From: Elusimicrobia bacterium RIFOXYA2_FULL_47_53
GTDB taxonomy: Bacteria; Elusimicrobiota; Endomicrobiia; Endomicrobiales; XYA2-FULL-47-53
Assembly (NCBI GenBank): GCA_001800315.1
Contig: MGVE01000014.1
Coordinates: forward strand, 49,358 to 113,357
Direction: 5' to 3'
Length of the DNA stretch: 64,000 bases
Positions 12,349 to 40,163 of the stretch are shown here, piece after piece. The position numbers and the translations under genes were made by a program. How positions within the stretch are numbered: position 1 is the first letter of the stretch; every line of letters begins with the position of its first letter. The notes beneath the pieces are model-generated. The model was given only the letters and a program-made list of their open reading frames with translations, did not search any database and had not been told where the DNA came from.

Positions 12349-12507
12349 ATTTTGGCAAGGCCATATTTTTTTCTGTTGCAGAAACAACATTTGGGCTACG
12401 GCTTCGTCTTTCTCAGCTAACATAGCGATGCTATGTTTCGCTTCGCAATCCTCGCCTCGCCACAAATCTTGTTTCTTCACTACGAAAACATATGGCCTTG
12501 CCAAAAT
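12349..12507. repeat. Foldback element E1 next to tRNA-Pro(CGG)
   Basis: A 159-bp element bounded by perfect 18-bp inverted repeats: ATTTTGGCAAGGCCATAT at 12349-12366 and its complement at 12490-12507. The core alternates GGCTTCG, TCTCAGCT, the hairpin ACATAGC-GAT-GCTATGT, CGCTTCG and CCTCGCCTCG, a style shared with the cores of E2, E3 and E4, which have different termini. Non-coding. Confidence 0.8.
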
Positions 12508-12661
12508 ACCGGAAAACCAGAAACTTCGCTACGAAAACATATGGCTTTGCCAAAATAACCGAAAACCGAAAAACTTGAGATCCGCTGCAAAACCGATCCC
12601 CTTTGCCAAAATACCGGAAAACCAGAAACTTCACTACGAAAACATATGGCCTTGCCAAAAA
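12508..12661. repeat. Array of alternating element right ends, locus 1
   Basis: Three units of 49, 56 and 49 bp follow E1 directly. The 49-bp unit ends in CATATGGCCTTGCCAAAAT, the right end of E1; the 56-bp unit ends in CGATCCCCTTTGCCAAAAT, the right end of element E2. Order is P-Q-P. No coding potential. Confidence 0.85.
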
Positions 12662-12799
12662 TAGACGGCAACTACGGAATCCGGTTTTGCCTGATTCGCG
12701 AATTAGCCGATACTTCAATGAGCAGGAAAGGATTCTACTAAATATTCACTGCAAGGTCAATCTAAATTGAATCCAGCGAGTTCAATGTGCCCAAGGTCT

Positions 12800-13260
12800 G
12801 ACGGTGGAGATTTCACCAGGCATGTAAAGTCACCCTGAACGAAGTGAAGGGTCTCGTTTTTCATCCAACGACGAGATTCTTCTCTCCCTGCGGGAGATCG
12901 GAACGACGGCGTTTGTGGATTCGGGACAGAATATTTTAAGTTGTAAGCTTTAAGTGAACGGCGAACTTCGTCGTGTCGTCATACCAGCGGAAGCTGGTAT
13001 CCAGAGGTTTTTCTGATCCCAGACTGAAGATTTTTGGGATGACAGCTTTTCTGGATTCCTGCTTTCCAGACTGTGTCGTAACTGTCATTAACGAGGGCTT
13101 TGAACTGTTGTCATGCTGAACGCAGTGAAGCATCTCTACGGTAAAAATAACTTCGAGATCCTTCGCTTACGCTCAGGATGACATTGCCACACAGTCTGTT
13201 CGCAGGAATGACAGACTTTCTTTATGTCATTATAACCAGAAGGTAGTAGTCTGGGATCCA
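12800..13260. repeat. Composite dispersed repeat island 2
   Basis: Non-coding. Contains CTCCCTGCGGGAG, AGTGAACGGCGAACTT, the palindrome TACCAGCGGAAGCTGGTA with CCAGAGGTTTTTCTG after it, GCTTTGAACTGTTGTCATGC with GCAGTGAAGCATCTC, and GGGATCC edges. Several modules are inverted relative to island 1. Confidence 0.8.
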
Positions 13261-13283
13261 CAAATAAAGTGAGAGGCCCCAAG

Positions 13284-13775
13284 CTACCATTTTTTGAACA
13301 TGAAGAATGTGGCGCCAATTATCATTAAAAAACTTACAAGATAGTTCCATCTGAAATCTTCCTTCAAATAGAAAAAAGAAAATACGGCAAAAATCACTAA
13401 AGTTATTATTTCCTGAATCGTTTTTAACTGCGCGGCGGAAAACTGATAATGGCCGATGCGGTTTGCCGGCACCTGAAAGCAATATTCCACAAACGCTATC
13501 CCCCAGCTGATGAGCACAACTTTTAACCCGGATTTTGCAATAGAGAGCGGTATTCTTCAAGCGATGCCGGATTTTTGTGTCCGCAAATAGCTCAACCGAT
13601 GTCCCTGCATCGCTTTCGCTTTTTACGTCACAAAAGCCTCGGCCTCACTCGCCTCGGTACTCGCTTCTATTGCAAAACCCGGGTTTAAAAGCGGAGAGCT
13701 TTTATATTTTAAATGGCCGTACCAGGCGACGGTCATAAAAATATTTGAAATAGTCAGAAGGATTATCGTTCTCAT
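13284..13775 (-). pseudogene. DUF486 membrane protein split by an insertion
   Basis: DUF486 proteins are roughly 110-residue, four-helix DMT-like membrane proteins. The N-terminal part (MRTIILLTISNIFMTVAWYG, then HLKYKSSPLL) reads from 13775 to about 13686 and the C-terminal part (VVLISWGIAF...CFQVPANRIGHYQF...FMFKKW) from about 13525 to 13284. Between them a 170-bp foldback element (E4) introduces stops and a frame change. Removing the element with one copy of TTAA restores SPLL-KVVLISW, which is the family sequence, at about 109 residues. The gene lies 20 nt after panD and was probably cotranscribed with it. The second half might still be translated alone but would lack the first helix. Confidence 0.88.
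13521..13690. mobile_element. Foldback/MITE-like element E4 inserted in DUF486
   Basis: A 170-bp non-coding insertion with imperfect inverted termini of about 28 bp: TTTTAACCCGGATTTTGCA at the left and the complement of TTTTAAACCCGGGTTTTGCA at the right. The junctions share TTAA, so a TTAA target duplication is likely. The core has the same GATGTCCCTGCATCGCTTTCG and GCCTCGGCCTCACTCGCCTCG style as E1-E3. This is the copy that shows the class is, or was, mobile. Confidence 0.82.
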
Positions 13776-13795
13776 TGATGGGCAGCCGGGGGTGT

Positions 13796-14137
13796 TTAGA
13801 GGAATTTTGTAAATTTGTTGTTTTTGTCCACATGGACATTCTGCGGTTTTACCTGCTTGTCGGAAAGCTCAAACCCCATGACAATTATTTCCTCGCCCTT
13901 TTTAATCAGATGGGCGGCCGCGCCGTTCATGCAGATTATCCCTGAATCGCGTTTGCCTGTCATTACATAGGTTTCAAGCCGCTGGCCGGTGGTATTGCTT
14001 ACAACGAGCACTTTTTCCCCGGGCATAAAGCCGGCTCGCTGGATTAAGTCCTCGTCAATAGTAATGCTTCCGATATAATTTACATCGGCTTCAGTTACAA
14101 TTGCTTTATGAATTTTTGACCGTAAAAACCATCTCAT
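13796..14137 (-). CDS. panD: Aspartate 1-decarboxylase proenzyme
   Basis: A 113-residue PanD, which decarboxylates L-aspartate to beta-alanine for pantothenate and coenzyme A synthesis. The self-cleavage site is Gly23-Ser24 in NYIGSITID, which yields the pyruvoyl group; the start MRWFLRSKIHKA is typical. A longer frame reaches into the tRNA gene and is rejected. The ATG lies only 20 nt from the tRNA-Pro(GGG) 3' end with no Shine-Dalgarno sequence; a CCCGAA/TTCGGG stem using the tRNA end spans the gap. No other pantothenate gene is nearby. Confidence 0.95.
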   Translation of the reverse strand: MRWFLRSKIHKAIVTEADVNYIGSITIDEDLIQRAGFMPGEKVLVVSNTTGQRLETYVMTGKRDSGIICMNGAAAHLIKKGEEIIVMGFELSDKQVKPQNVHVDKNNKFTKFL

Positions 14138-14157
14138 AATTATTTGCCCGAAAAAAT

Positions 14158-14231
14158 TCGGGGCGGCCAGATTTGAACTGGCGACCTCTCCCACCCCAAG
14201 GGAGTGCGCTAGCCAGCTACGCTACGCCCCG
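14158..14231 (-). tRNA. tRNA-Pro (anticodon GGG)
   Basis: Minus-strand cloverleaf with acceptor CGGGGCG/CGCCCCG, D arm GCGT/GCGC, anticodon stem CTCCC/GGGAG around TTGGGGT giving GGG, T stem GCCAG/CTGGC and discriminator A. CCA is not encoded. A foldback element starts 3 nt upstream, exactly as at the other tRNA-Pro gene. Confidence 0.95.
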
Positions 14232-14234
14232 ACT

Positions 14235-14393
14235 ATTTTGGCAAAGGGGATCTTGTTTTTACTGCGGAGTCAATATTTGAGTTTCAACTTCGTCATTCTC
14301 GCCTTGCGTAGCGTTGCTACGCCGCGTCTTGAATTCCTCGTTTCACTTCAAATCTTGACTCCTCGCTACAAAACCGATCCCCTTTGCCAAAAT
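14235..14393. repeat. Foldback element E2 next to tRNA-Pro(GGG)
   Basis: A 159-bp element with perfect 18-bp inverted termini ATTTTGGCAAAGGGGATC (14235-14252; complement 14376-14393). Its length equals E1 and its first nine bases are the same, but the rest of the terminus differs. The core contains AACTTCGTCATTCTCGCC, the hairpin GCGTAGCGTTGCTACGC and TTCCTCG. Non-coding. Confidence 0.8.
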
Positions 14394-14603
14394 ATCGGAA
14401 AACCAGAAACTTCACTACGAAAACATATGGCCTTGCCAAAATAACCGAAAACCTAAAACTTGAGATCCGCTGCAAAACCGATCCCCTTTGCCAAAATACC
14501 GGAAAAACCAGAAACTTCACTGCGAAAACATATGGCCTTGCCAAAATAACCGAAAACCGAAAAACTTGAGATCCGCTACAAAACCGATCCCCTTTGCCAA
14601 AAT
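14394..14603. repeat. Array of alternating element right ends, locus 2
   Basis: Four units of 49, 55, 50 and 56 bp in the order P-Q-P-Q, followed by a broken fifth unit up to about 14620. P ends as E1 ends, Q as E2 ends. Units match those at 12508-12661 almost base for base, so the two loci exchange or share a common source. Confidence 0.85.
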
Positions 14604-14657
14604 ACCGGAAAAACCAGGAATTAAGGCAAAAAAACAACAGAGTTTTGGTGGATATAA

Positions 14658-15035
14658 TTATTTCAACAATTCAAGCAGCTCTTCAAGTTCTTTTTTTGCT
14701 TCCGCTATCGTTTCACCGTAGCCGGAATTATCCTGCGGTTTAACTTCCATGTTGAGCTGTACGCCTTCTTCGGGCGATGTTTTCTTCCTGCCAAACAGCG
14801 CCTTGCGGGCTCCGGCGATAGTAAATTTTCTTTCGTACAAAAGCCCCTTGATCTGGAAAATAAGTTCAAGGTCTTTCTTTGTGTATTTTCTCTGGCCCGA
14901 ATTCCTTCTGGCGGGGCGCAGCTGCTTAAACTCGCTCTCCCAGTAGCGTAAAACATAAGCCGGGAGCTGCGAAAGCCTGCTTGCTTCTCCTATAGAAAAA
15001 AATTCCTTGTCAGGGAAAATTGGTGTAAGTTCCAT
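14658..15035 (-). CDS. MerR-family DNA-binding protein
   Basis: A 125-residue protein with an N-terminal MerR winged-helix domain: FSIGEASRLSQLPAYVLRYW is the helix-turn-helix and the wing/second helix follow (RRNSGQRKYTKKDLELIFQI, FTIAGARKAL). The C-terminal 40 residues are acidic and probably coiled-coil, with no metal-binding cysteines. Such short MerR-like proteins often sit beside HU/IHF genes. Here it lies 131 nt downstream of the HU gene and may be cotranscribed with it. Target genes are unknown. Confidence 0.85.
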   Translation of the reverse strand: MELTPIFPDKEFFSIGEASRLSQLPAYVLRYWESEFKQLRPARRNSGQRKYTKKDLELIFQIKGLLYERKFTIAGARKALFGRKKTSPEEGVQLNMEVKPQDNSGYGETIAEAKKELEELLELLK

Positions 15036-15166
15036 TATAGTTAAAGTAAAACTTTAGACCATTAAACCAAAGAGCGAAATAAAAGTCAAGTTTCCGACGA
15101 TAACAAAAATAAGCGCTCCGGCGCGAAGCAAAAACTACGCGTCAATGAAAATTCTCAGGCGCCGGC

Positions 15167-15424
15167 TTAAAAAAGCTCCTTGGACTGCTTGAAACGCACC
15201 TTTTTCCTCGGAGAAATATGAACCGTCTGCCCGGTTTTTGGATTTCTGGCTTTTTTCGCACGGGAAATGTAAGGGGTGAATGTTCCGAATCCGGAGATGA
15301 CAACTTTTTCCCCCTGCGAAAGCGATTTGGCGAGCAGAGAGAAAACGCCTTCCACGGCATCTCTGGCCTCTTTTTTCGTGCTTAGCACCTTAAGAAGTGA
15401 TTCTATTAAATCGTTCCTGTTCAT
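15167..15424 (-). CDS. HU/IHF-family DNA-bending protein
   Basis: An 85-residue histone-like protein. The family signature GFGTFTPYISRAKKARNPKTG includes the DNA-clamping arm with RNPKTG and the Pro that intercalates. The open frame begins at a TTG (15430), but ATG at 15424 has GGAAGG 8 nt upstream and overlaps the gpsA stop as ATGA, so it is the start. It closes the hflX-pgsA-der-plsY-gpsA series. Whether it forms homodimers (HU) or IHF-like heterodimers cannot be told. Confidence 0.93.
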   Translation of the reverse strand: MNRNDLIESLLKVLSTKKEARDAVEGVFSLLAKSLSQGEKVVISGFGTFTPYISRAKKARNPKTGQTVHISPRKKVRFKQSKELF

Positions 15425-16452
15425 ATACAAAGCCTTCCAATCTCTAACACCGTTTCGGATTTTGCCTCTCTTGACATAAGTTCCATAAGGGCTTCCCGCG
15501 GCGATTTATTCTCATAAAGAATCCTGTAAACCTGCTCAATTATCGGCAGCTGAATAGAGTATTTTTTGGCGAGTTCCACCGCGCTTTTGGAGGTTTTCAC
15601 TCCCTCGGCGACCATAATGATTTCTTTCTCGGATTCGGAAAGAGTTTTGCCGGCTCCTATTTTTTCGCCGAGGCCGCGGTTGCGCGAGTGTTTTGAAAAG
15701 GCCGTGACAATGAGGTCCCCGAGCCCGCTCAGCCCGAAAAAGGTTGAAGGATTCCCGCCCATTTTAATTCCAAGCGCGGCTATTTCCCTGAGGCCCCGGG
15801 TCACGAGCGCGGCCTTGGTGTTGTCTCCGAGGGCAAGTCCGTCGCAGATGCCGGCGGCTATGGCAAGAACATTTTTAAGAGCGGCGCCGGTTTCCACGCC
15901 GGCTATATCCGGGCTTGAATATACCCTGAAATAGTCGCAGAGAAAAAGCTCCTGCGCGGCCCTGGCTGCCGCCTCGTTTTTTGAGGCCGCGGTTGCCGCC
16001 GTAGGAATTTTTTTTGCCACTTCCTCGGCGTGGGTGGGGCCGGACAATACCGCGACCCCTTTTGTCCCCGAGCCGAGTTCCTCTTCCAGGATCTCGGACA
16101 TTCTTTTAAGCGTTGTATTCTCTATCCCTTTTGTGGCTGATACGATAACGGTGTTTTTTAGATCAGCGCCGCAGGCCGATACTTTTTTTGCCGTGGCCCG
16201 AAGCGTGTGCGACGGGACTACGAAAACCACGAAATCCATATTTTTTACCGCGGAGGAAATATCGCTGGTTATAATTAATTCCTTGGATAGCGTTATATAA
16301 GGGAAGAAAGAAAGCGAGCGGAACATGGCGAGTTCGCGGGCTTTTTTTTCGTCAAATTCCCACAGCGTCACGGAACAGCCTTTTTCAAAAAGCAGGTTCG
16401 CGATAGTGGTTCCCCATGATCCCGCGCCGAGAACTCCGATCTTTAAAGTCAT
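15421..16452 (-). CDS. gpsA: Glycerol-3-phosphate dehydrogenase [NAD(P)+]
   Basis: A 343-residue GpsA that reduces dihydroxyacetone phosphate to sn-glycerol-3-phosphate for phospholipid synthesis. The Rossmann motif is GVLGAGSWGTTIANLL, the catalytic Lys lies in TGAALKNVLAIAAG and the NGRG-like region appears as SRNRGLG. It overlaps plsY upstream by 4 nt (ATGA) and HU downstream by 4 nt, so product and user of glycerol-3-phosphate are translationally coupled. Confidence 0.97.
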   Translation of the reverse strand: MTLKIGVLGAGSWGTTIANLLFEKGCSVTLWEFDEKKARELAMFRSLSFFPYITLSKELIITSDISSAVKNMDFVVFVVPSHTLRATAKKVSACGADLKNTVIVSATKGIENTTLKRMSEILEEELGSGTKGVAVLSGPTHAEEVAKKIPTAATAASKNEAAARAAQELFLCDYFRVYSSPDIAGVETGAALKNVLAIAAGICDGLALGDNTKAALVTRGLREIAALGIKMGGNPSTFFGLSGLGDLIVTAFSKHSRNRGLGEKIGAGKTLSESEKEIIMVAEGVKTSKSAVELAKKYSIQLPIIEQVYRILYENKSPREALMELMSREAKSETVLEIGRLCI

Positions 16453-17060
16453 TTTGAGCCGCCCTTTGAAGAAAAATTGATTTTATTTTCAGTGCCGTTC
16501 AAAAGCCTTTTTATGTTGCTTTTATGCTTATAGACTATGGCGGCGGCAGCCAGGGCCGCGAAGGCCGTGAATTCCCAGGGTGCCTTAAAAACCGCGGAGG
16601 CCGCGGGCAGGCATAAAGCCGAAATTATTGACCCCAGAGAAACATATTTTGTAACCGCCAGTATAAGCGCGAAAATTATCACGCTTGTTAGCGTCGGAAC
16701 GGGCAGCAGCGCCAGGAAAACTCCGGCCGCGGTCGCCACGCCTTTGCCCCCTCTGAAATTTAAAAAAACTGTCCAGATATGCCCTGAAATGGCGCAAAGC
16801 CCCGCGAGCAGCCACAGAGCGGGGCGGTCCGGAAAAAATATTTTTGCGGCAAGCATTACAGGGACAAAACCTTTTAAGGCGTCAATTAAAAGCGTTATGA
16901 TGCCCGGGACCCTGCCCGCGACCCTTAAAACATTGGTGGCTCCCGGGTTGCCGGAGCCAAGCGTCCTTATGTCGGCTCCCTTGAGAAGCCTGACCGCGAT
17001 GTAGCCAGTCGGAATGGATCCGGATAGATACGAAAGGACAGCGAGCAGCAGTATGTTCAT
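16449..17060 (-). CDS. plsY: Acyl-phosphate:glycerol-3-phosphate acyltransferase
   Basis: A 203-residue integral membrane enzyme that acylates glycerol-3-phosphate at position 1. Conserved loops are visible: SGSIPTGYI near the start, the SGNPGATNVLR phosphate-binding motif and FRGGKGVATAAG. Five to seven membrane segments fit the family. It starts immediately after the der stop and overlaps gpsA by 4 nt. Confidence 0.97.
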   Translation of the reverse strand: MNILLLAVLSYLSGSIPTGYIAVRLLKGADIRTLGSGNPGATNVLRVAGRVPGIITLLIDALKGFVPVMLAAKIFFPDRPALWLLAGLCAISGHIWTVFLNFRGGKGVATAAGVFLALLPVPTLTSVIIFALILAVTKYVSLGSIISALCLPAASAVFKAPWEFTAFAALAAAAIVYKHKSNIKRLLNGTENKINFSSKGGSK

Positions 17061-18365
17061 TTATAGGCTCTTAAACTTAAGCACAAGCGGAGTTCCCTGA
17101 AAGCCGAAACGGTCCCTGATGGCGTTCTCCAGGTACCTGCGGTAAGAGAAATGCACAAGTTCCACCGAGTTTACCGTAAAGACAAAACACGGCGCCATCG
17201 CTCCGTGCTGAACGACTTTGTGAACGCGCAGAATTTTCCCTTTTCTGGAGAGCGGCCTGTTTCTCAGGGCCGAGTCAATAGTGTCCTTAAGCTCCTGTTC
17301 TGGCACGATTCTGGTGTACTGGTTGTAAACCTTGTTTACCTCGGTTAAAATTCTTTCCGTGCGCTGGCCGGTTTTTGCCGAAATAAATATCATCTCCGAC
17401 CACCAGAGAAACTGAAGCTTTTGTTCAAGCTGCCGTTTTATATCTTTAACCGCGTCTTCTCTCTCCTCAACCAAATCCCACTTGTTCAGGGCAATAATGC
17501 AGCCCCTGTGATTTTTCAAAATCAGTTCGGCTATTCTGGCTTCGGTTTCGCCCACGCCTATGGTCGCGTCTATAACAAGTATCGCGACATCCGCTCTTTC
17601 CAGCGCCCAGTTCGCGCTCAGAGTTGAGAGGTACTCCATGTCATTTTTAAATTTATGTTTTCTGTGAAGCCCTGGGGTGTCAATGATAACATACTGCTGG
17701 CCGTCTCTTTCTATGGTTATGTCTACGGCCTCCCGCGTCGTGCCGGGTTGATCGTTTACTATCACCCGGTCCTCTTTCATGAGCTTGTTTAAAAGAGACG
17801 ACTTGCCGACATTAGGTTTTCCGACGAGAACTATTGATATAGGCCGGCCCTTTATGTCAAGCAGTTCGCTCTTGGTATTTTTAACGCTTGCGCTTATTTT
17901 GTCAAGCAGCGTGTTGATATTCAGTCCGTGAGTGCCGGAAACGGTTATATAGTCGTCAAAGCCGAGCCTGAAAAAATCGCTGGCTTTTACCTCTTCTTTT
18001 TCGGTGTCTATTTTATTGATCAGCAGTATGACTTTTTTCGCGTACTTCCGCAGGATCGCCGCGATGTCGCCGTCCAGCGGGTGGTACCCGTTTTTTCCGT
18101 CTACCGCGAAAAGCACAAGACCGGCTTTTTTCAGCCCCTCCTCCATCTGGCGGCGTATCTGGGCGGAAATATAATTCGTATTATCTTCCCAGCCGCCGGT
18201 GTCAATGAGCTGGAACTTTTTGCCGTTCCATTCAACCGGCATTTCATTGCGGTCCCTGGTGGTTCCGGGTTCATGGTGAACTAACGCCCTTTTCTTCCCG
18301 CAGATCCTGTTAAAGAGGGTGGATTTTCCGACATTGGGCCGGCCGATTACGACGACATTTTCCAT
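17061..18365 (-). CDS. der: Ribosome biogenesis GTPase Der (EngA)
   Basis: A 434-residue protein with two GTPase domains in tandem and a C-terminal KH-like domain, essential for 50S subunit assembly. G1 motifs are GRPNVGKSTLFN (first) and GKPNVGKSSLLN (second); G3 motifs are DTGGW and DTPGLHRKHK; G4 motifs NKID and NKWD. Length is normal. It lies 2 nt from pgsA and abuts plsY. Confidence 0.98.
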   Translation of the reverse strand: MENVVVIGRPNVGKSTLFNRICGKKRALVHHEPGTTRDRNEMPVEWNGKKFQLIDTGGWEDNTNYISAQIRRQMEEGLKKAGLVLFAVDGKNGYHPLDGDIAAILRKYAKKVILLINKIDTEKEEVKASDFFRLGFDDYITVSGTHGLNINTLLDKISASVKNTKSELLDIKGRPISIVLVGKPNVGKSSLLNKLMKEDRVIVNDQPGTTREAVDITIERDGQQYVIIDTPGLHRKHKFKNDMEYLSTLSANWALERADVAILVIDATIGVGETEARIAELILKNHRGCIIALNKWDLVEEREDAVKDIKRQLEQKLQFLWWSEMIFISAKTGQRTERILTEVNKVYNQYTRIVPEQELKDTIDSALRNRPLSRKGKILRVHKVVQHGAMAPCFVFTVNSVELVHFSYRRYLENAIRDRFGFQGTPLVLKFKSL

Positions 18366-18367
18366 AG

Positions 18368-18877
18368 TTATAGCCTTTTGCTTCCGCTGATGAAATAATC
18401 AAGCCCCGAGATAACCGTAAAGCCTACGGTCGCCAGAAGCAGCGGCTCCGTTACAGACTGCGGGATTCCCAGGATAATTATCCATACGGTAAACATTTGA
18501 AACACGGTTGTTATCTTGCTTAAGACCCGCGGTTTAATTTCCGTGGAGCCTTTAAGAATGTAAATTACTGTCCAGCCCAGGACGATTATGATATCGCGGC
18601 TTAAGATTACCACGAAAATCCAGAGCGACAATTTCCCCAGGAAGGCAAGCGTGAGATAGGATGAGAGCATAAGCAGTTTGTCGGCCAGCGGGTCTAAAAA
18701 CGAACCGAGCTGGGTCTTCTGCTTTTTGTAGCGCGCCACAAAGCCGTCAAGAGCGTCGGATAAAATGGTGAAAGTGAAAATTATTGCCGGCCACGGGGCA
18801 AGGCCCTGCAAAAGCAATACAATAAAAACCGGAATTAAGAAAATCCTGACCAGCGTAATTTTGTTTGCGAGAGTCAT
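18368..18877 (-). CDS. pgsA: CDP-diacylglycerol-glycerol-3-phosphate phosphatidyltransferase
   Basis: A 169-residue CDP-alcohol phosphatidyltransferase making phosphatidylglycerol-phosphate. The family motif D(x)2DG(x)2AR(x)8G(x)3D(x)3D is present as SDALDGFVARYKK...GSFLDPLADKLL. Several membrane segments follow. The frame can be extended upstream, but ATG at 18877 overlaps the hflX stop as ATGA and gives the normal N-terminus MTLANKITLVRI. Together with gpsA and plsY it makes this operon a phospholipid supply unit. Confidence 0.95.
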   Translation of the reverse strand: MTLANKITLVRIFLIPVFIVLLLQGLAPWPAIIFTFTILSDALDGFVARYKKQKTQLGSFLDPLADKLLMLSSYLTLAFLGKLSLWIFVVILSRDIIIVLGWTVIYILKGSTEIKPRVLSKITTVFQMFTVWIIILGIPQSVTEPLLLATVGFTVISGLDYFISGSKRL

Positions 18878-20124: not shown

Positions 20125-20144
20125 TTATATAGACTAAAAAATCC

Positions 20145-20213
20145 GCGCGGTTCAGTCGGCGGACACTTTGAAATTGTAGCCCGAAAGAGGTTTTTCAACC
20201 GACTCAAATTATA
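20145..20213. repeat. Short copy of an E3-type foldback terminus
   Basis: On the minus strand this leader starts TATAATTTGAGTCGGTTG and continues AAAAACCTCTTTCGGGCT, matching the left terminus of element E3 at 39988-40021 except for single bases. A complementary CCGACTGAACC lies near 20145. It looks like a foldback element reduced by internal deletion, and its outer edge supplies the TATAAT of the proposed hflX promoter. Confidence 0.6.
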
Positions 20214-29925: not shown

Positions 29926-30855
29926 ATTGGGGTCAGGTCTTTAGATTTAACATTAGGGATTATTGACATTGACAATCCTGCTCACGGTTACATAATGTAA
30001 ACCTAAATGTTTTGCTATATCTGCCTGCTTGTATCCAAACTTAATGTGCGCCTCAATAATCTTTATGTTTCGTTCTTTTATAGATTTAACATCAGCAAAT
30101 AGTTCCTTAAGTTTCTGTCGGTTTGCGTGCCGCTGTTCCCTTGGGATCTCAATCTGATTGTATTTCTCGGCAACTTTTACGCCCATATCTTCCATGAACG
30201 CTTCTCCACCCATAAAGACTTGACCCACCACATCTCCCCAAGGAGCTTTTTGACCCATTTGTTCTGCCACAAAGATTTGATACCGCTTTATTGATTCTCT
30301 CAGAGATGCGCCAAATTGCTCAGCAATGTAACCGGTATCCAGCCATTTAGGTGGAAGTTCTCTTCCGATTGTGGCGCGATAACTGCTCCACTGCCAATCA
30401 TCTGGCTGGCACACCATCTTTGCCCGCACAGGATTAAGAACAATATATGCGCTTAGGGCCATCAAATAATTCTGTTTTTCAACAATAAATGCTTTGTAGC
30501 GCCCCTGAAACACATGCCCGGTTTTCTTGTGTTTACGATTAAAAAATTGAGTATACACACCGTTCAGCTGGCGCATACCAAGACTAAGATTGGGCATAGT
30601 GGTTTCTATCAGAAGATGATAGTGATTATTCATTAAACAATATGCGTAGCATTTCCATTTATAACGCTCAACTACAAGTCTAACTGTGCGCAGGAACATA
30701 TTCTTGTCTTCATCAGACAAAAAGATTCTCCCTCGAGCATTGCCGCGCGAAGTTATATGATATAGTGCTCCTGCATATTCTATTCTTAAAGGGCGTGCCA
30801 TAATATTGTTATGCTATAAAACTAAATGCTAAATGTAAAGACCTGACCCCATTGT
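29926..30855. mobile_element. RAYT transposase unit bounded by inverted repeats
   Basis: The transposase gene is flanked by about 28-bp inverted repeats: TTGGGGTCAGGTCTTTAGAT at the left (from 29927) and its near complement ending in AAAGACCTGACCCCATTG at the right (to about 30854). The right end lies just upstream of the gene and probably includes its promoter; the left end abuts the stop codon. The compact layout suggests one transposable or REP-like unit. Confidence 0.75.
29953..30801 (-). CDS. REP-associated tyrosine transposase (RAYT, HUH superfamily)
   Basis: A 282-residue Y1-type single-strand DNA transposase. The family start MARPLRIEYAGALYHITSRG is intact, the HUH metal site is His60-Tyr-His62 in NNHYHLLIE, and the catalytic Tyr is among those in QNYLMALSAYIVLNPVRAKM (Tyr112 or Tyr119). 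A C-terminal helix-turn-helix (YKQADIAKHLGLHYVTVSRI) marks the long RAYT subgroup. RAYTs nick and move palindromic REP DNA. The reading frame is complete, so it may be active. Confidence 0.93.
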   Translation of the reverse strand: MARPLRIEYAGALYHITSRGNARGRIFLSDEDKNMFLRTVRLVVERYKWKCYAYCLMNNHYHLLIETTMPNLSLGMRQLNGVYTQFFNRKHKKTGHVFQGRYKAFIVEKQNYLMALSAYIVLNPVRAKMVCQPDDWQWSSYRATIGRELPPKWLDTGYIAEQFGASLRESIKRYQIFVAEQMGQKAPWGDVVGQVFMGGEAFMEDMGVKVAEKYNQIEIPREQRHANRQKLKELFADVKSIKERNIKIIEAHIKFGYKQADIAKHLGLHYVTVSRIVNVNNP

Positions 30856-32553: not shown

Positions 32554-32567
32554 ATCCATTCTCCCAA

Positions 32568-32607: not shown

Positions 32608-32618
32608 CTTGATGTCAA
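32589..32618 (-). promoter_or_regulatory. Consensus sigma-70 promoter of the nucleotidyltransferase operon
   Basis: Both hexamers are exact: TTGACA (32618-32613) and TATAAT (32594-32589), separated by 18 nt on the minus strand. Such a strong promoter covered by an operator implies tight repression. Confidence 0.88.
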
Positions 32619-32678
32619 GATAAATATGACTTCAATTAATTCATAACACCTTCTAAAAGTATCCTTGCTTTTACAGGG

Positions 32679-34448
32679 TTATCGCGGTTTTAATTTATTT
32701 TCCAGCGCTTTTTGAAACTCCGGATTAACGCTTCCTGATATTTGCCGCAGGGTCAGCACATCATCCCAGGATTTTTGATACTCCCCCGCGTAGAAAAATG
32801 CGTAAGCCCTGTTCTGAAGCGCTTCTGTTGAGTAGGGTTTTATTTCCAGCGCCTTTGTGAAATCCGCCGTTGCCTGCCTGAAATCCCCGAGTTTTCCGTA
32901 CAATACCCCGCGGGTTACCCATTCCTGCCACGAGCGCGGATTCAACTCAAGAAACGCGCTGTAATCCCGAAGCGCGGCTTTGTAATTTCCCTGTTCCGAG
33001 AGCAAGGCGGCGCGGCGGGCATAAGCTTTGGTAAAAAACGGATTGGCGCGAAGAGCCTCTGTGTAAGCCTGAAACGCTTTTTCGTTTTCTCCCGAGGAAT
33101 GAAACAGGCCGCCCATACTGTTATGAGCCGGAGCGTATTTCGGGTTAGCCGTAAGAGCAAGCTCGTAGTCGCGAAGCGCGGATACATTATCTCCGCGCCT
33201 GTTGTAAATGTCTCCGCGCATGCAGAGCGCGATTTCTGAAAGCGGATATTTTGTTATGGCGTTATTAAGCAGAGTTATACTGTCGTGCCACAAGGATGCC
33301 GTTTTCCAGGTAGCCGCGGAGAGCAATAATACGCACACAACGCCCGCGGTAGTGAGCAGTCTTTTTGCGCCCGCGGAGTCAATGGTTGACAGCGCGGCCG
33401 ATAGAATGAAGAGTAATCCGACGGAAGGCAAATACAAATACCTGTCGGCGTGCGTTCCTATGCCAAACGGTATCAACTGCAGAACAGGCGCTAAGGTAAT
33501 TACAAAAAACAAGGCGCCAAATACTGCCCTCCGGTTATTTCTGTATTTAGTCAGCATTACCGCGGCGATTAGACAGAGCGCCGCAAGCGAAACTATGCCC
33601 GCCGCCGCGGAGATGTTTCCCGCTTTAAACGGATAAACGAATGAAAGGCCAACAGGCGCCACGAATTTCCCGGCATAAAATAGCAGTCCGAAAGCCGCGA
33701 AAAGCGCCTGAGAGGCGATGCCGCCCGCGAACAGCGGGCCGGAATAGAATTCTGTGGAGTATTGGGCGCGCAGAGCAATAAATGTAAATAGCGCGGAGAG
33801 AGCGAAAAACGGCAATTTTTCCAACAGTATTTTAGAAACATCTTTTCTTTCGCGCAGATAATCCAGAAGTATAAGCGCCGCGGGCAGTGTTACCGCCATA
33901 GGTTTTGATAAAAGAGACAGCGCAAAAATAAATGCGGATGCGTAAAGGTATTTTTTGTCGCGCCGGTCCAGGTAGTTAAGATAGGCAAGAAGGCTGATTA
34001 AGTAGAAAAAAGCGCTCAAGAGATCTTTTCTCTCCGATATCCACGCGACAGACTCAACATGGACAGGGTGCGCGGCAAACACCAGGGCGGCAAAAAGCGA
34101 TACCCGGAGCGGGAAAGCAGTTTTTAAAAACAGCAAATACACAAGAATACTAATGAAAATATGCAAAGCCAGGTTTGTCGCGTGAAATGCCGAAGGGTTC
34201 ATTCCGAAGGCTCGGTATTCTATCATGTACGAGAGAGTGACAAGCGGGTGGTAGAGCCCCATGTAAGGTTTGAGAAATAAATCCCCTATTTTGTTCGGCG
34301 AAGCTTTCACAACAAAGGGATTCTCGGTTACCAGAACCGTGTCGTCAATTTCCAGAAAATTGTTGCGCAGAGACGGCAAATAGGAGAACGCGCCGACAAT
34401 TGCTATTATCGCTATGGAGAGAAGCACAGCTTTTTTTATTGGAATCAA
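32679..34448 (-). CDS. Membrane glycosyltransferase-like protein with TPR domain
   Basis: A 589-residue protein: about ten membrane segments in residues 1-390 followed by at least five TPRs (SEIALCMRGDIYNRRGDNVS, KYAPAHNSMGGLFHSSGENE and so on). An early luminal/periplasmic motif LEIDDTVLVTEN and AHPVHVESVAWISERKDLLS match the TMTC/DUF1736-like protein O-mannosyltransferase relatives of the GT-C fold. It probably transfers a lipid-linked sugar to proteins or glycans at the outer face of the inner membrane. Start codon is TTG with AAGG 6 nt upstream. No glycosylation partner is adjacent. Confidence 0.82.
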   Translation of the reverse strand: MIPIKKAVLLSIAIIAIVGAFSYLPSLRNNFLEIDDTVLVTENPFVVKASPNKIGDLFLKPYMGLYHPLVTLSYMIEYRAFGMNPSAFHATNLALHIFISILVYLLFLKTAFPLRVSLFAALVFAAHPVHVESVAWISERKDLLSAFFYLISLLAYLNYLDRRDKKYLYASAFIFALSLLSKPMAVTLPAALILLDYLRERKDVSKILLEKLPFFALSALFTFIALRAQYSTEFYSGPLFAGGIASQALFAAFGLLFYAGKFVAPVGLSFVYPFKAGNISAAAGIVSLAALCLIAAVMLTKYRNNRRAVFGALFFVITLAPVLQLIPFGIGTHADRYLYLPSVGLLFILSAALSTIDSAGAKRLLTTAGVVCVLLLSAATWKTASLWHDSITLLNNAITKYPLSEIALCMRGDIYNRRGDNVSALRDYELALTANPKYAPAHNSMGGLFHSSGENEKAFQAYTEALRANPFFTKAYARRAALLSEQGNYKAALRDYSAFLELNPRSWQEWVTRGVLYGKLGDFRQATADFTKALEIKPYSTEALQNRAYAFFYAGEYQKSWDDVLTLRQISGSVNPEFQKALENKLKPR

Positions 34449-34482
34449 TTTTGGCCTTTTGGCGGAAGGTGCAACCGCGCTT

Positions 34483-34860
34483 TTAAGTTATAAGTTTTAA
34501 GTTGTAAGTTATAAGTGAACGGCGAACTTCTGGGTCGTCATATCTTTTCCTGACAACAGAGATCCTTCTCTCCCTTCGGGAGATCAGGATGACGGCTTTT
34601 TCGTTGTCTTCGCGAGCGGAGCGTGGCGATCTCGCAGTTTACGCCGAGATTGCTTCGTCGTTGCACTCCTCGCAAAGACGGACTTTTCTGTGTCGTCATA
34701 CCCGCGGAAGCGGGTTCCAGTGGTTTTTCTGAAACCAGAATTACACCCCGGGGGTGTAATACGGATAAACCATTTAACTGCGAGATTGCCCCGCCACTTA
34801 ACCTTTGGCGAACTGACGCGCCGTTTCGGGTTTGTTAAGCCCTGCTCTGAGGTTATAAAA
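34483..34860. repeat. Composite dispersed repeat island 4
   Basis: Non-coding. Starts with AAGTTATAAGTTTTAAGTTG, then GTGAACGGCGAACTTC, CTCCCTTCGGGAGATC, a TACCCGCGGAAGCGGGTTCC palindrome variant, CCACTTAACCTTTGGCGAAC and TGACGCGCCG. The palindrome here has CCCGC/GCGGG instead of CCAGC/GCTGG, a compensatory change that keeps the stem. Confidence 0.8.
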
Positions 34861-34862
34861 AC

Positions 34863-34902
34863 AAAAAAATCCTCCCGCAAAAAACGCTGGCGGGGATTTT
34901 TT
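34863..34902 (-). terminator. Rho-independent terminator overlapping the rsgA stop
   Basis: ATCCCCGC and GCGGGAGGAT pair with one bulge around a T-rich loop, followed by seven T on the minus strand. The first bases overlap the rsgA stop region. Confidence 0.85.
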
Positions 34903-35983
34903 AATGTTCGTATTTTCTTTTATGCTCTTGCATCTGTTTGGTTAGTTTACTTATATTCTTTTCCCAGACGACTTTCGCATTGCGGGATTTTATTTTTTCC
35001 TTGCGGGTCGCTAAATATCGGAGTTCCTTTTTGACCTTTGTGTAGTTATTAAACCGTTTGGGGTCTAACGCGCCGTTTTCCATCGCCGCCCTGACGGCGC
35101 AGCCCGGTTCATCGGCATGTTTGCAGTCCTTGAACCTGCAATTAGCCGCTATGTCCTTAATATCGTTGAAGGTAGTGTCAAGGCTATCTTCTTCTGCCCA
35201 CAGGCGGAGTTCGCGAAGCCCTGGATTGTCAATGACGATCCCTCCGCCGGGAAGTAGAATAAGCTCCCTGTGAGTTGTTATATGTTTACCTTTACCGTCA
35301 CTTTCCCGGACTGTGCCGACTTTTAATCTTTCTTCCCCCAGCAGGCGGTTAATTATTGTTGATTTCCCCACTCCGGAAGAACCAATGAAAGATACGGTAA
35401 CGCCTTTTGTGATGTATTCATCAAGGAATTCAATCCCCATATTATTCGCCGCGCTCAAAGTGTGGATTGGATGTCCGGTAGCAATAGATTTTACCTCTTC
35501 CACTCTTTCCTGCAAATTGTCGCAGAGATCTGTTTTGTTCAGCAAAATAACAGGTTTTATGCCGCTGTTGACCGCAAGTATCAGGTATCTTTCTATGCGC
35601 CTTAAGTTAAAGTCGGTATCAAGCCCGTTTACCAGAAATACTATATCAATGTTTGACACTAAAACCTGCTCTTCCGTTATTTCTCCGGGTGATTTTCTGG
35701 AGAATTTTGTTTTCCTCGGCAGGATAGCCTCAATTACCGCCAGATTGCCTTCAGGCGATAACCGGGCCATTACCCAGTCGCCAACCACAGGCAAATCGCT
35801 TATTGACGCGGCATTAAAGCGTATTTTGCCCGTTATTTCCGCACGATATTCACCCGTCTCGCTTAAAATGGAGTATATTTCTCTCTGAGCTGTTGCGACT
35901 CTCGCGGGAAAGACATTCTCGCTTTTTACCGCGTTAAAACTGTCGTTAAATTGATTATTCCAACCCAGCTCTGTTAATTCCAT
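34901..35983 (-). CDS. rsgA: Small ribosomal subunit biogenesis GTPase RsgA
   Basis: A 360-residue circularly permuted GTPase that matures the 30S subunit. Order is OB domain, then G4 (LLNKTDL), G1 (GSSGVGKSTIINRLLG) and G3 (DNPGLRELRL), then the zinc site NCRFKDCKHADEPGCAV with Cys-Cys-His-Cys. The C-terminus is rich in Lys and helical (KSRNAKVVWEKNISKLTKQM), as in the RsgA subgroup of this length. Single gene with its own terminator. Confidence 0.96.
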   Translation of the reverse strand: MELTELGWNNQFNDSFNAVKSENVFPARVATAQREIYSILSETGEYRAEITGKIRFNAASISDLPVVGDWVMARLSPEGNLAVIEAILPRKTKFSRKSPGEITEEQVLVSNIDIVFLVNGLDTDFNLRRIERYLILAVNSGIKPVILLNKTDLCDNLQERVEEVKSIATGHPIHTLSAANNMGIEFLDEYITKGVTVSFIGSSGVGKSTIINRLLGEERLKVGTVRESDGKGKHITTHRELILLPGGGIVIDNPGLRELRLWAEEDSLDTTFNDIKDIAANCRFKDCKHADEPGCAVRAAMENGALDPKRFNNYTKVKKELRYLATRKEKIKSRNAKVVWEKNISKLTKQMQEHKRKYEH

Positions 35984-36030
35984 TTTAATTTATCCAGTCC
36001 GTTTGCCGGCTAAACGGGAGTGCCATAGGG

Positions 36031-36951
36031 CTATTTCTTTTTGCCGTTTGCTTTTTTTGATTTCAGGAAGAAGAATAAGACGACGCCGCAGGTTACCACC
36101 GTGGATGCCCACTCCGGAATGTGAACCCCGAAGCTTTTGAGTATCATAAAAGAGCCGAGGAAAAGTATGGAGTACATGGCCCCGTTTTTAAGGTAAATGT
36201 ATTTTTTTACGCGCTCAATGTTGCCTATCGTCAGCTGTCTGACTACCACCGCTCCCAGGCCGTTGCCGAGTAGAATTATCGGGACCGACATCGTAAAAGC
36301 GAAGGCGCCGAGTACGCCGTCTATGGAGAAGGTCGCGTCTATGACTTCAAGATAGAGTATCTTGCTCAGGTCCGAGGCACCGGAACTCAAAAGCTCTTTC
36401 TCCGACTTCTCGGCGCTGCTCTTAAACCCGTGAGTTATAAAAAAAGCGCTGGAACCGATTACGGCGCTGAAAGCCATCATGGGGTGTTTTTTAAGCGAAA
36501 TCCAGACTATGACAGTCAGGAGCACGGATACCACGGAGTAGAACCACAGGCCGTTGGCATAAAAGAATTTTTCAACGACAGGCAGTCCGAAGTTCTTGGA
36601 TTCAAGGAAAAGCCAGTGCAGGAACAGGAAAAGCAGGAAAATTCCGCCGCCCATCATAAGTATGGGGGCCGAGCTTTCAATGGCTTCGGCGACCTTCGGG
36701 TCGCTTGAGAAAGTGGCTGTCAGCGCGCCTATAAAGCTAAGGGACGGCGTAGTCATCCACACGATAACCCACGGCAGTAGCCCTCGCACGACAAAAACGG
36801 CGAATATTATTCCCCAGAACAAAAACCACCGGCGCGCCCTGGCGCTCATTCCGGAAAGCACCTCGGCGTTTATAATGGCATTGTCAATGCTGGATATTGT
36901 TTCAAAAAGGGATAAACCGATAATCGGTATAAGTAATGAAAATAAGTCCAT
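36031..36951 (-). CDS. DUF475 / TerC-like integral membrane protein
   Basis: A 306-residue protein with about eight membrane helices. Acidic intramembrane motifs ETISSIDNAIINAEVLS near residue 17 and EVIDATFSIDGVLGAF near 200 are those of the DUF475/TerC family, thought to export metal ions such as Mn2+ or to act with tellurite-resistance proteins. The C-terminus is basic (KSKKANGKKK). GAGGTG lies 6 nt before the ATG. No ter gene lies nearby. Confidence 0.88.
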   Translation of the reverse strand: MDLFSLLIPIIGLSLFETISSIDNAIINAEVLSGMSARARRWFLFWGIIFAVFVVRGLLPWVIVWMTTPSLSFIGALTATFSSDPKVAEAIESSAPILMMGGGIFLLFLFLHWLFLESKNFGLPVVEKFFYANGLWFYSVVSVLLTVIVWISLKKHPMMAFSAVIGSSAFFITHGFKSSAEKSEKELLSSGASDLSKILYLEVIDATFSIDGVLGAFAFTMSVPIILLGNGLGAVVVRQLTIGNIERVKKYIYLKNGAMYSILFLGSFMILKSFGVHIPEWASTVVTCGVVLFFFLKSKKANGKKK

Positions 36952-37039
36952 GACACCTCGCCTTGTTATGTTTTATGCCGCTCGTAAACTGGCTCAAATT
37001 TTACCATTTTATCAAGGAAAATCATAGCTTCCGGTCGTC

Positions 37040-37530
37040 AAGCGAGGCAGCTCTTTTGTGTCGTCATGCCAGCGGAAGCTGGTATCCAGAGGTTTTTCTG
37101 GATTACGGAGTGGCGGCCCAATGCTTTGAATAAAATCAGCCGGCCTCCCAGGCGAATGCGAAGCATTCTTCACCCGTCCAAAGACGGGTGATTTTTCGCC
37201 GCGGGACAGAACATTTCCGGAATGACGGACTTTACGGAACGCGCAGCAAGCTGCGCCGCTACAAAACCATTTAACTGCGAGATTGCCCCACCACTGAACC
37301 TTCGGCGGACTGTCGCCCGCCACTGAACCTTCGGCGGACTGTCGCCCGCCACTGAACCTTCGGCGGACTGTCGCCCGCCACTGAACCTTCGGCGGACTGT
37401 CGCCCACCACTGAACCTTCGGCGGACTGTCGCCCGCCACTGAACCTTTGGCGTGCTGACGCGTCCCTTCGCTCGCAACGATAGACTTTTTTAGTGTTGTC
37501 ATCCCAGAGGCAGTAGTCTGGGATCCATTA
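37040..37530. repeat. Composite dispersed repeat island 5
   Basis: Non-coding. Repeats the order of island 3 (palindrome, GGTTTTTCTGG, GGAGTGGCGGCCC block, CACCCGTC/GACGGGTG hairpin, GCGGGACAGAACATTTCC) and then continues into AACCATTTAACTGCGAG, a 29-bp tandem array and CCCAGAGGCAGTAGTCTGGG. The apparent proteins across it are translations of repeats. Confidence 0.85.
37292..37461. repeat. 29-bp tandem repeat, about six units
   Basis: Units start at 37292, 37321, 37350, 37379, 37408 and 37437, each CACTGAACCTTCGGCGGACT plus GTCGCCCGC; the last unit diverges after ten bases. Each unit holds a small CCGCC/GGCGG stem-loop. Units are nearly identical and contiguous, so this is not CRISPR. Confidence 0.92.
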
Positions 37531-37557
37531 CAAAAAGCCATTAATAATGGCCTAAAA

Positions 37558-37592
37558 TAAAAAACCGCCCGGTTAAAGGCGGCTTTTTACAT
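37558..37592 (-). terminator. Rho-independent terminator of the polyamine operon
   Basis: GCCGCC pairs with GGCGGT around CTTTAACCGG; on the minus strand it is followed by TTTTTT. It lies about 20 nt after the stop at 37611. Confidence 0.88.
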
Positions 37593-37610
37593 TTAATATT
37601 GTGCTCTTTG

Positions 37611-38864
37611 TTAAGAAGTCTTGGTGTTGAGTTTTTTCAGCTTATAGCTGGATATTTTCTTTACTTCGGTCGGGAGGCCCATTCCGTTTAAAAGCTCTAT
37701 AAAAGGATCCGGGTCAAGCTCTTCCACATTTACCATGGTTTTTACATCCCATTGGCCTTTAGCGATAAGGATGGCCGCGGCAACCGGCGGAACGCCGGCG
37801 GTGTAGCTTATGGCCTGGGACTCAACCTCGTTGTAGCATTCTTTATGGTCGCAGACATTGTAGATGAAGAGTTCTTTTTCCTTCTCCCCCTTTTTGCCTT
37901 TTACAAGACAGCCTATGCAGGTTTTTCCGGTATAGTTAGGAGCCAGGGTTTTCGGATCCGGCAGGCAGGCCTTTACTGCTTTAAGAGGCACCACTTCAAG
38001 CCCTTCCGCGGTTTTTACGGGTTTTTCGGACAGGAGCCCGATATTTTTTAAAACCGTGAAGCAGTTGATGTAGTGGTCGGAAAATCCCATCCAGAAGCGT
38101 ATGCTGTTGGCGTCAATGTTTTTGGAGAGCGAATGCAGTTCGTCGTGCCCGGTCAGGTAAACAGGCTGTTTCCCTACCACCGGGAAGCTGTAAACGAGCT
38201 TTTCGGTGTGCGTGGGAAGGCAGACCCATTTGCGGTCTATCCAGGTCCAGACCTTTACGAATTCCCTGAAGTTTATCTCGGGGTCAAAATTCGTGGCAAA
38301 ATACTTGCCGTGCGACCCGGCGTTAACATCCATGATATCAATCGTGTCTATTTTATCAAAGTAGTGTTTCAACGCGAGCGCGCAGTAGGCATTGACCACG
38401 CCCGGATCAAAGCCGGCTCCGAGTATCGCGGTTACGCCTTTTTCCTTGCAGCGGTCTTTCCTTTTCCACTCATAATTTCCGTACCAGGGCGGATCCTCGC
38501 ATACCTTGTCGGGTTCCTCGTGTATGGCGGTGTCTATGTAGGCCGCGCCGGTTTCTATGCAGGCTTCAAGCACCGACATGTTGACGAAAGCGGAAGCAAG
38601 GTTGACGACGATTGAAATATCGTTTTCCTTGATTAGTTTTACTGTCGCTTTTACATCCTTCGCGTCAATCTGCTTGGCCGTAATCGTGTTCTTGGGGTCT
38701 TTGTAGCTGTTTTTGTTTTTCACGCTCGCAAGAATGTCTTCGCAGTGTTTCGGCGAACGGGAAGCGATATAAATATTGCCGAATATGTCGTTGTTCTGCG
38801 CGAACTTGTGCGCCGCCACATGAGCAACTCCCCCGGCTCCTACGATAAGCACATTTCTTTTCAT
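37611..38864 (-). CDS. Carboxynorspermidine/carboxyspermidine dehydrogenase
   Basis: A 417-residue enzyme of the saccharopine dehydrogenase family. Rossmann motif GAGGVAHVAAHKFAQN is at the N-terminus; AILGAGFDPGVVNAYCALAL and later PVYLTGHDELHSL are typical of the carboxy(nor)spermidine branch. It condenses aspartate semialdehyde with putrescine or diaminopropane and reduces the product. GGGAGA precedes the ATG by 7 nt. It lies 15 nt downstream of nspC, which confirms the polyamine assignment over lysine metabolism. Confidence 0.9.
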   Translation of the reverse strand: MKRNVLIVGAGGVAHVAAHKFAQNNDIFGNIYIASRSPKHCEDILASVKNKNSYKDPKNTITAKQIDAKDVKATVKLIKENDISIVVNLASAFVNMSVLEACIETGAAYIDTAIHEEPDKVCEDPPWYGNYEWKRKDRCKEKGVTAILGAGFDPGVVNAYCALALKHYFDKIDTIDIMDVNAGSHGKYFATNFDPEINFREFVKVWTWIDRKWVCLPTHTEKLVYSFPVVGKQPVYLTGHDELHSLSKNIDANSIRFWMGFSDHYINCFTVLKNIGLLSEKPVKTAEGLEVVPLKAVKACLPDPKTLAPNYTGKTCIGCLVKGKKGEKEKELFIYNVCDHKECYNEVESQAISYTAGVPPVAAAILIAKGQWDVKTMVNVEELDPDPFIELLNGMGLPTEVKKISSYKLKKLNTKTS

Positions 38865-38879
38865 TGTTTTTCTCCCTGG

Positions 38880-39983
38880 TTACGATAAACTGCCGGTAAA
38901 ATCCTTATATGTAAATTCGCGGACAACTTTAATTTTCCCGTTTAACTGCCTGAGGACAATCGCGGGCATCTGCAGGCCGTTAAACCAGTTCTTTTTAACC
39001 ATTGAATATCCGGCCGCGTCGGCGATACGCACGATGGAGCCGGGTTTTAAGCGCGCTTTGAATTTGTAAGTTCCGAAAATATCGCCGGCGAGGCAGGAGC
39101 GCCCTGCCACGGTATATTTATATTTTCCGTTTTCAACGCCTTCCATTTTTGCCGGTGTTCTGTATATAAGAAGGTCCAGCATATGGGCTTCGGTTGAGGC
39201 GTCCACAATGGCTATGTCAACTTTGTTATGAACTACATCAAGAACTTTCGTAACAAGCTCTCCGCCCTTTGTTATGCTGGACTCGCCGGGTTCAAGGTAA
39301 ACCTGCAGGTTGAATTTCGCGCCAAACGACTTTAGTTTCGCGCAAAACTTATCCAGAGGATAGCCCTCTTTAGTGAAGTAAAGGCCGCCTCCGAGGCTCA
39401 CCCAGCTGAGCCTGCGCAGTATTTCGCCGTATTCCGAGGCTATGTAGTCAAGCGATTTTGAGAAATTAGGAAAATCGTCGTTTTCGCAGTTGAAGTGAAA
39501 CATCGCGCCGCTGATCTTGTCTATAACCTTAAGCACAGCTTTTTTGTCACTGACGCCCAGCCTGGAGTGCTTTCTGGCCGGGTCGGCGAGGTCAAAATGC
39601 GAATAGCTTATTCCGGGATTTATTCTAAGGCCTGTTTTAACGCCCCTGCAGTGCTTGGCGAAGGCCTTTAACTGCGAGACCGAATTGAAAATGACTTTAT
39701 CGGAGAATTTTGCCGTTTCCCGGATGTCGTTTTCGGAGAAGGCCACGCAGTAGGCGTGAGTCTCTTTGCCGAATTTTTCAAAGCCCAGCTTCGCCTCGTA
39801 GAGCGAACTGCTGGTGGTTCCGTCCATATAGCGGCGCATCAACGGAAAAACAGACCAGGTTGAAAAACATTTCAGGGCAAGCACCGACTTAGCGCCGGAG
39901 TGTTCCCGGACATACCTGATTTTTTTCAGGTTTGAAAGAAGCTTCCTTTCATCAATAAGGTAATAGGGCGTAGTTAGCCGCAT
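38880..39983 (-). CDS. nspC: Carboxynorspermidine decarboxylase
   Basis: A 367-residue PLP enzyme of the alanine-racemase-fold decarboxylases. The PLP Lys is in VLALKCFST, followed by HFNCEND, SLGGGLYFT, EPGESS and the active-site AGRSCLAGDIFG. It releases CO2 from carboxy(nor)spermidine to give (nor)spermidine. The frame runs further upstream, but that part translates a foldback element; ATG at 39983 gives the family N-terminus RLTTPYYLIDERKL. The start lies only 2 nt past a TATAAT belonging to element E3, so initiation of transcription is unclear. Confidence 0.95.
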   Translation of the reverse strand: MRLTTPYYLIDERKLLSNLKKIRYVREHSGAKSVLALKCFSTWSVFPLMRRYMDGTTSSSLYEAKLGFEKFGKETHAYCVAFSENDIRETAKFSDKVIFNSVSQLKAFAKHCRGVKTGLRINPGISYSHFDLADPARKHSRLGVSDKKAVLKVIDKISGAMFHFNCENDDFPNFSKSLDYIASEYGEILRRLSWVSLGGGLYFTKEGYPLDKFCAKLKSFGAKFNLQVYLEPGESSITKGGELVTKVLDVVHNKVDIAIVDASTEAHMLDLLIYRTPAKMEGVENGKYKYTVAGRSCLAGDIFGTYKFKARLKPGSIVRIADAAGYSMVKKNWFNGLQMPAIVLRQLNGKIKVVREFTYKDFTGSLS

Positions 39984-39989
39984 GATTAT

Positions 39990-40163
39990 AATTTGAGTCA
40001 GTTGAAAAACCTCTTTCGGGCTGCAATTTCGGTCTTTGGCCTGCGGCTTCGTTGGCCTCAGCTTACAGATACTCCGTGGAGCATATGCTCGCTTCGGCCG
40101 TCTTGCCTCGGCGCAAAGCCCAAAATTTCGCTCCTGAAACAGGCTTTTCAATTGACTCAATTT
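39990..40163. repeat. Foldback element E3 upstream of nspC
   Basis: A 174-bp element with inverted termini AATTTGAGTCAGTTGAAAA and the complement of AAATTGAGTCAATTGAAAA (17 of 19 match). The core contains CTGCGGCTTCGTTGGCCTCAG, ACTCCGTGGAG, GCTTCGGCCG and CTTGCCTCGGCG (given in parts), the same style as E1. Non-coding. The following 230 bases to 40395 are AT-rich and hold nothing I can identify. Confidence 0.78.

Follow-up and report, generated by a model that had tools for sequence, protein, structure and literature searches.

How can a short repeated element change the sequence of its ends and still keep those ends complementary to one another? The question was raised by a 64,000-nucleotide stretch of contig MGVE01000014.1 of Elusimicrobia bacterium RIFOXYA2_FULL_47_53 (hereafter the window), in which four non-coding foldbacks, E1 to E4, are bounded by inverted repeats. 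A first-pass annotation, made from the letters alone, had placed these foldbacks at 12349–12507 (E1), 13521–13690 (E2), 14235–14393 (E3) and 39990–40163 (E4); all four were recovered there, with arms that pair within each copy. It had also ascribed a shared style of core to all of them. This holds for E1, E3 and E4, which are one structural family (88–122 bits against the covariance model R2 described below), but not for E2, which is separate (best 7 bits, with all filters off). Members of the family are mobile, keep a conserved fold while their arms are free to vary, carry varied ends on related cores and sit at the edges of tRNA genes in a fixed orientation. We think it probable that they are small, non-autonomous mobile elements resembling miniature inverted-repeat transposable elements (MITEs), whose family identity lies in the folded core rather than in the sequence of the ends.

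The core is ∼118 nt long, and one of its strands forms a long hairpin; when both strands of E1, E2, E3 and E4 were folded, the minus strand was the better-folding one in each case. Helices of the core vary freely yet keep pairing, and between them lie five fixed, purine-rich internal loops in which GA stands opposite GCA, GAA, GA or TAA. The approximate consensus is TTTCGTAGCGA-(8 bp)-ATTTG-GGCGAAAC-GA-GGAATCT-GAG-CGA-GCGTAGC-loop for the 5′ half and, after the loop, GCTACGT-AAG-CCGA-AGATTCC-GAA-GTTGCAGCC-CAAAT-(8 bp)-GCAGTAGAAA for the 3′ half. E1 occupies 12349–12507 on the minus strand (core 12370–12487), and its outer arms are ∼18–24 bp long and start TATTTTGGCAAGGCCATATG. E3 lies at 14235–14393, also on the minus strand, with its core at 14256–14373 and outer arms TATTTTGGCAAAGGGGATC, while E4 (39994–40158, minus strand, core 40015–40138) has the termini TGAGTCARTTGAAAAA.

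A first covariance model, R1, was built on four copies: E1, E3, a relative found by BLAST on contig 16, and E4. In these, two-sided changes affected 25 of 36 pairs, and 93.8% of cells were paired; whether judged by paired cells, double changes or covariation score, none of 500 shuffles came near this set. A second model, R2, was built from 36 copies. E1 scored 131.7 and 121.8 bits with R1 and R2, respectively, E3 126.6 and 121.8 bits, and E4 101.7 and 88.0 bits. In an alignment of 71 copies, 94.3% of cells pair and every one of the 36 pairs shows two-sided changes, with 807 double-changed cells as compared with 252 in shuffles and 99–170 with slid partners. Because this alignment was fitted to the covariance model, a second one was made with plain MAFFT, and only the structure of E1 was imposed on it; 89.6% of cells were then paired in the other 35 sequences, against 30–43% in slid controls. 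The covariance-model check of arm covariation proposed in the first-pass annotation was strongly positive.

Beyond the core, outer arms extend for mostly 17–25 bp. Across the order their pairs comprise 727 Watson–Crick, 34 G.U, 12 A.C and 31 other combinations, while the median pairwise identity between the arms of different copies is 0.28; the annotation was thus right that termini have changed while staying complementary. On the strand that carries the GA loops, G.U exceeds A.C (34:12; P = 8e-4 in the order, 0.095 in the wider phylum). Such an excess is the trace expected from selection on the folded strand, and provides modest evidence that this selection may operate. The scarcity of G.U, once considered as proof of folding at the DNA level, was given up as such, since the ratio of one-sided to two-sided changes is similar in tRNA stems from these genomes (12:88 against 32:322).

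Searches with R1 found 23 copies in the genome that contains the window at E ≤ 0.001, most of them at 1e-23 or better, and matches in 17 of 39 relatives, those in three further families of the order reaching 1e-29. With R2, 57 of 294 genomes of the phylum gave matches at E ≤ 1e-10. The element is multi-copy and spread patchily over many families of the phylum, with 0 to more than 12 copies per genome; because the phylum scan scored no more than 12 candidates from any one genome, its copy numbers are lower bounds. Model E-values are rough, and matches of 30–50 bits were given no weight. Foldbacks of type B and of the E2 family gave no match to the core model at E ≤ 1, save for true copies in the same loci, and true copies scored 22–36 bits in antisense as compared with more than 110 bits on the sense strand. 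Among 20 named genomes scanned, only a weak, related-looking pair of foldbacks was found, in a Chlamydiae metagenome-assembled genome (50 and 42 bits); on the strength of these two the family may perhaps reach beyond one phylum. No curated Rfam family matched the element, searches by DNA found no relative of E4 in plasmids or of E1 in phages, and our literature searches found no description of an element of this kind.

E2 (13527–13683, minus strand) interrupts a DUF486 gene, also on the minus strand, whose N-terminal part (MRTIILLTISNIF...KYKSSPLL) lies at 13686–13775 and whose C-terminal part (LKVVLISWGIAFVEYC...FKKW), for which homologues were found, lies at 13284–13526. The frame continues on both sides of the insert and meets stops within it. 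Since uninterrupted homologues read straight across the site, through KYKxSPL[W/L/F]KV, E2 has inserted cleanly, with a 4–5 bp duplication, TTAA(A) (TTTAA at 13522–13526; the other copy at 13684–13688). Its family numbers about eight copies, in two subtypes with matched arms. Membership of E2 in the E1/E3/E4 family was rejected on the scores given above. An origin of its arms from the target flank was likewise rejected; the DUF486 gene is complete on both sides.

Mobility of the core family is seen in the branch that includes E4. There are ∼10 near-identical copies of E4 in the genome, with conserved termini. E4 itself is flanked by AATT at 39990–39993 and 40159–40162, with the start codon of a decarboxylase gene directly after the element, and most of its siblings have direct 4-bp repeats at their flanks (AACT, AATT, AAAT, TTAT, AAGT), target duplications being judged by eye from the printed flanks. 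Ends of the E4 type gave 119 pattern hits, against 5 in a reversed control; a solo 3′ end of such an element lies in the window at 20170–20206 on the plus strand, beside an IPP transferase gene (pattern hit C14:69548). E4-type TGAGTC ends also bound a second, unrelated core, with TCATTGCGAG/GCAATCTC-type repeat text, at loci L032, L035, L039, L043, L045, L047, L049, L057 and L060. Ends and cores are interchangeable. At another locus (L055; C8:217699–217908) a type-B element and the 3′ arm of an E4-type element are joined, seemingly by insertion of the former into the latter or by recombination between the two.

The converse, one core with several ends, is found outside the order, where the same core is bounded by TGATACTGTTGAAAAAC, GAGCCTGTTGCACAAA, GGGTCTGCTGAAAA, GGAGCCTGTCCGACATAAGG and more. 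In genome G107, two 1.66-kb elements with the ends GGAGCCTGTCCGACATAAGG encode an IS1182 transposase (NF033551, 380 bits); the foldbacks of that genome have 19–25 terminal bases in common with these copies of the insertion sequence (IS), but not the core. In a tree of the cores, a single clade unites E4 with the MITE-type elements, which between them have six or more kinds of ends, and most copies at tRNA edges fall outside it; the tree rests on about 119 columns with local supports of 0.95–0.97, so that its support is moderate.

Like MITEs, the elements are short, non-coding and bounded by terminal inverted repeats, and in the E4 branch they have target site duplications. An autonomous element with matching ends is present in G107, whereas none was found in the window's genome. 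Terminal sequence is common to members of the TGAGTC and IS1182-type subfamilies, but not to the family that the core defines. The first-pass annotation had set these foldbacks apart from ordinary MITEs, a contrast that was too strong given the duplications and fixed termini of E4 copies and the IS1182 termini in a relative. Its statement that termini differ between elements applies between subfamilies; within them, E1 and E3 have the very end TATTTTGGCAA in common, and the termini of E4 hardly vary among its near-identical copies.

A second placement characterizes copies without TGAGTC ends. In 9 of 14 such copies in the window's genome, and in 7 copies from relatives, a tRNA gene lies 19–26 nt from the core, nearly touching the outer arm. 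E1 and E3 are of this type, each followed after 3–4 bp by a tRNA-Pro gene of the same orientation: tRNA-Pro(cgg), immediately downstream of E1 at 12271–12346 (minus), and tRNA-Pro(ggg), beside E3 at 14157–14232 (minus). The 3′ end of the element faces the tRNA in all 16 tRNA-edge copies, of which 5 adjoin the tRNA 5′ end and 11 the 3′ end; in the latter, the strand that is conserved runs antisense to the tRNA. This strict orientation points to some targeting rule. An origin of the arms of this group in the target flank is unlikely, a weak TTTTGGCAA-like end being common to arms at both tRNA ends.

The first-pass annotation had suggested that closely related genomes be compared for empty sites, and orthologous tRNA sites were indeed found both filled and empty. 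One such site, at tRNA-Leu(cag), has a response regulator as its common neighbour: genomes G000 and G003 have the element there, G005 has a displaced one next to a 3′ fragment of a tRNA, and in G007 the site is empty; at a Lys–Glu tRNA site, both G005 and G002 have an element. Orthology is based on one or two neighbouring genes at each site, and the flanking genes are 63% identical at Leu(cag) and 79% identical at Lys/Glu. Between the filled sites the arms have diverged but still pair, and arm pairs show 12 two-sided, 2–3 one-sided and 4–7 broken changes at Leu(cag), and 13–18, 3–7 and 9–19, respectively, at Lys. The simplest reading of elements at the same tRNA in different families is vertical descent, although a hot spot with repeated insertion may account for them instead. 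At locus L298 (756–800), which is also the site of L102, 16 nt of the tRNA-Leu 3′ end are repeated directly beside the element, and an intact tRNA-Leu(cag) lies ∼120 nt off.

How might both arms come to change together? Upstream of E1 (12508–12660, minus; U1, U2, U1) and of E3 (14394–14617, minus; U1, U2, U1, U2) lie arrays of alternating 49- and 56-bp half-units, which consist of the 5′ arms only of E1-/E3-type elements. The 5′ arms of E1 and E3 correspond to the two half-unit types of the adjoining arrays; the arrays hold no 3′ arms, and the 3′ arms of E1 and E3 match their respective 5′ arms. Between E1 and E3, 20 pair changes are two-sided, 0–2 are one-sided and 3 are broken. Together, these observations fit the rewriting of one arm from the other, but they are suggestive only, as the arrays could instead derive from the elements. 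Template switching of this sort has been described for bacterial quasipalindromes and RNA genes (PMC7202029, PMC8794818). The first-pass annotation had named two possible causes for the matched arms, and each finds support: selection on a folded strand in the conserved unpaired loops and the G.U to A.C ratio, and copying from arm to arm in the E1/E3 changes and the documented switching.

Between the two arrays, at 12800–13240, short palindromes such as TCACCCTGAACGAAGTGAAGGGTCT and TCATGCTGAACGCAGTGAAGCATCT have GA/GA mismatches and matched variable flanks, the same arm behaviour at a smaller scale. Elsewhere in the window, 29-bp tandem repeats of CCCGCCACTGAACCTTCGGCGGACTGTCG lie at 37287–37452 and 52264–52340.

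If the elements are MITE-like, as we favour, their outer arms would be the binding sites of a transposase and would be acted on by one resident in the genome. Upon loss or change of that transposase, elements whose ends come to fit another would persist, and the arms would thereby be replaced. A change would arise first on one arm, the other being rewritten by hairpin template switching at replication, and pairing would be kept further by selection on the folded single strand, whether DNA or RNA. The conserved loops might be read by a putative protein, or be needed for stability or transposition. Several points weigh against this proposal. Covariation by itself would also be compatible with a functional RNA. 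A clear target duplication is missing in most tRNA-adjacent copies, a possible TCGG at Leu(cag) being the single candidate in that branch. No DDE_Tnp_1 (PF01609) transposase was found in the window's genome, so that no active partner of the TGAGTC ends is apparent there. Finally, exchange of ends is deduced from a core tree of moderate support rather than observed as an event.

A functional structured RNA, or an RNA leader or trailer, selected for its fold, multi-copy by chance and often adjoining tRNA genes, would account for the conserved loops, for helix covariation at a level like that of tRNA stems, for the G.U excess and for copies at the same tRNA in different families. We nevertheless consider it unlikely, since copy number is patchy, IS ends and target duplications occur on the copies, elements at tRNA 3′ ends have their conserved strand opposite in sense to the tRNA, and Rfam holds no match. 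Another candidate is a single-stranded DNA element moved by a Y1/HUH (IS200/RAYT-like) transposase and recognized by its shape, in the manner of repetitive extragenic palindromes (REPs) or attC sites. Shape and unpaired bases are kept here while arm sequence is free, the genome has five Y1_Tnp genes, one of them within the window (29953–30801, minus), and a GTAG beside the hairpin presumably resembles that of REPs, which we take as a lead only. However, no foldback element lies at any of the five Y1 loci; Y1 enzymes are not known to make target duplications, whereas E4-type copies have duplications of 4 bp; and the ends in G107 are those of the DDE-type IS1182. Movement by a Y1 enzyme thus seems to us improbable.

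Two further readings dispense with selection on the fold or with the family itself. Neutral palindromes, whose arms are kept matched by template switching alone, would draw on a documented process (PMC8794818, PMC7202029) and would show few one-sided changes, as is the case between E1 and E3. Rewriting alone would, however, erase internal mismatches, yet the letters of the GA-type loops are kept across families; the loops must therefore be under selection, and the asymmetry between G.U and A.C also points to a folded strand. We regard neutral maintenance as very improbable. That the foldbacks are unrelated MITEs with GC-rich words in common and no common core is true of E2, for which the model shows no relationship. 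For E1, E3 and E4 it is refuted by a specific model with negative controls that finds matches to 1e-29 in other families and leaves other foldbacks of the same genome unmatched; as an account of the set, it retains hardly any credence.

A bolder proposal, which we put forward tentatively and think doubtful as it stands, is that these foldbacks represent a class of element in which the folded single strand is the heritable identity: the loops would be read by an enzyme or host factor, while the arms would be disposable and mutually rewritten, so that the element could alter its ends to suit a new transposase, or settle at tRNA edges. Non-autonomous elements are usually viewed as bound to the transposase that reads their ends. 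A core that persists while one set of ends gives way to another many times over would show how such parasites survive the loss of a helper, and would offer a natural system in which to watch hairpin arm-to-arm rewriting, a proposed yet rarely followed source of compensatory change.

Among known systems, IS-derived bacterial MITEs, here of the IS1182 type, are alike in being 100–200 bp long and non-coding, with terminal inverted repeats, 4-bp target duplications (in the E4 branch) and, in a relative, ends identical to those of a resident IS1182; they differ in that the core described here is not an internal part of the IS, is more widely spread than any single set of ends, and has arms that covary between copies. 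Integron attC sites are recognized in folded, single-stranded form, their unpaired bases being conserved and their arm sequence free. The elements have these last two features in common with attC, an analogy of working only; no integrase or cassettes were noticed, in an analysis that included no search for an integrase or R boxes. ERIC, IRU and similar imperfect palindromes (reviewed in PMC10969869) are, like the elements, ∼127–170 bp long, intergenic and mobile, with a stable fold and a lineage-dependent copy number, but by description the mark of the ERIC family is its sequence, whereas here it is loops and shape, with arm sequence free. REP/REPIN hairpins have conserved mismatches and are recognized as single strands by TnpA-REP (PMC8266576); the present hairpin, also with conserved mismatches, is much longer, has target duplications and DDE-type IS ends, and, unlike REPs with their RAYT, was found beside none of the five Y1 transposase loci. 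In hairpins maintained by template switching, multi-base compensatory changes keep the stem perfect (PMC8794818), as they preserve it here; that process is a mechanism of mutation and not an element, and in this family it would act on mobile DNA.

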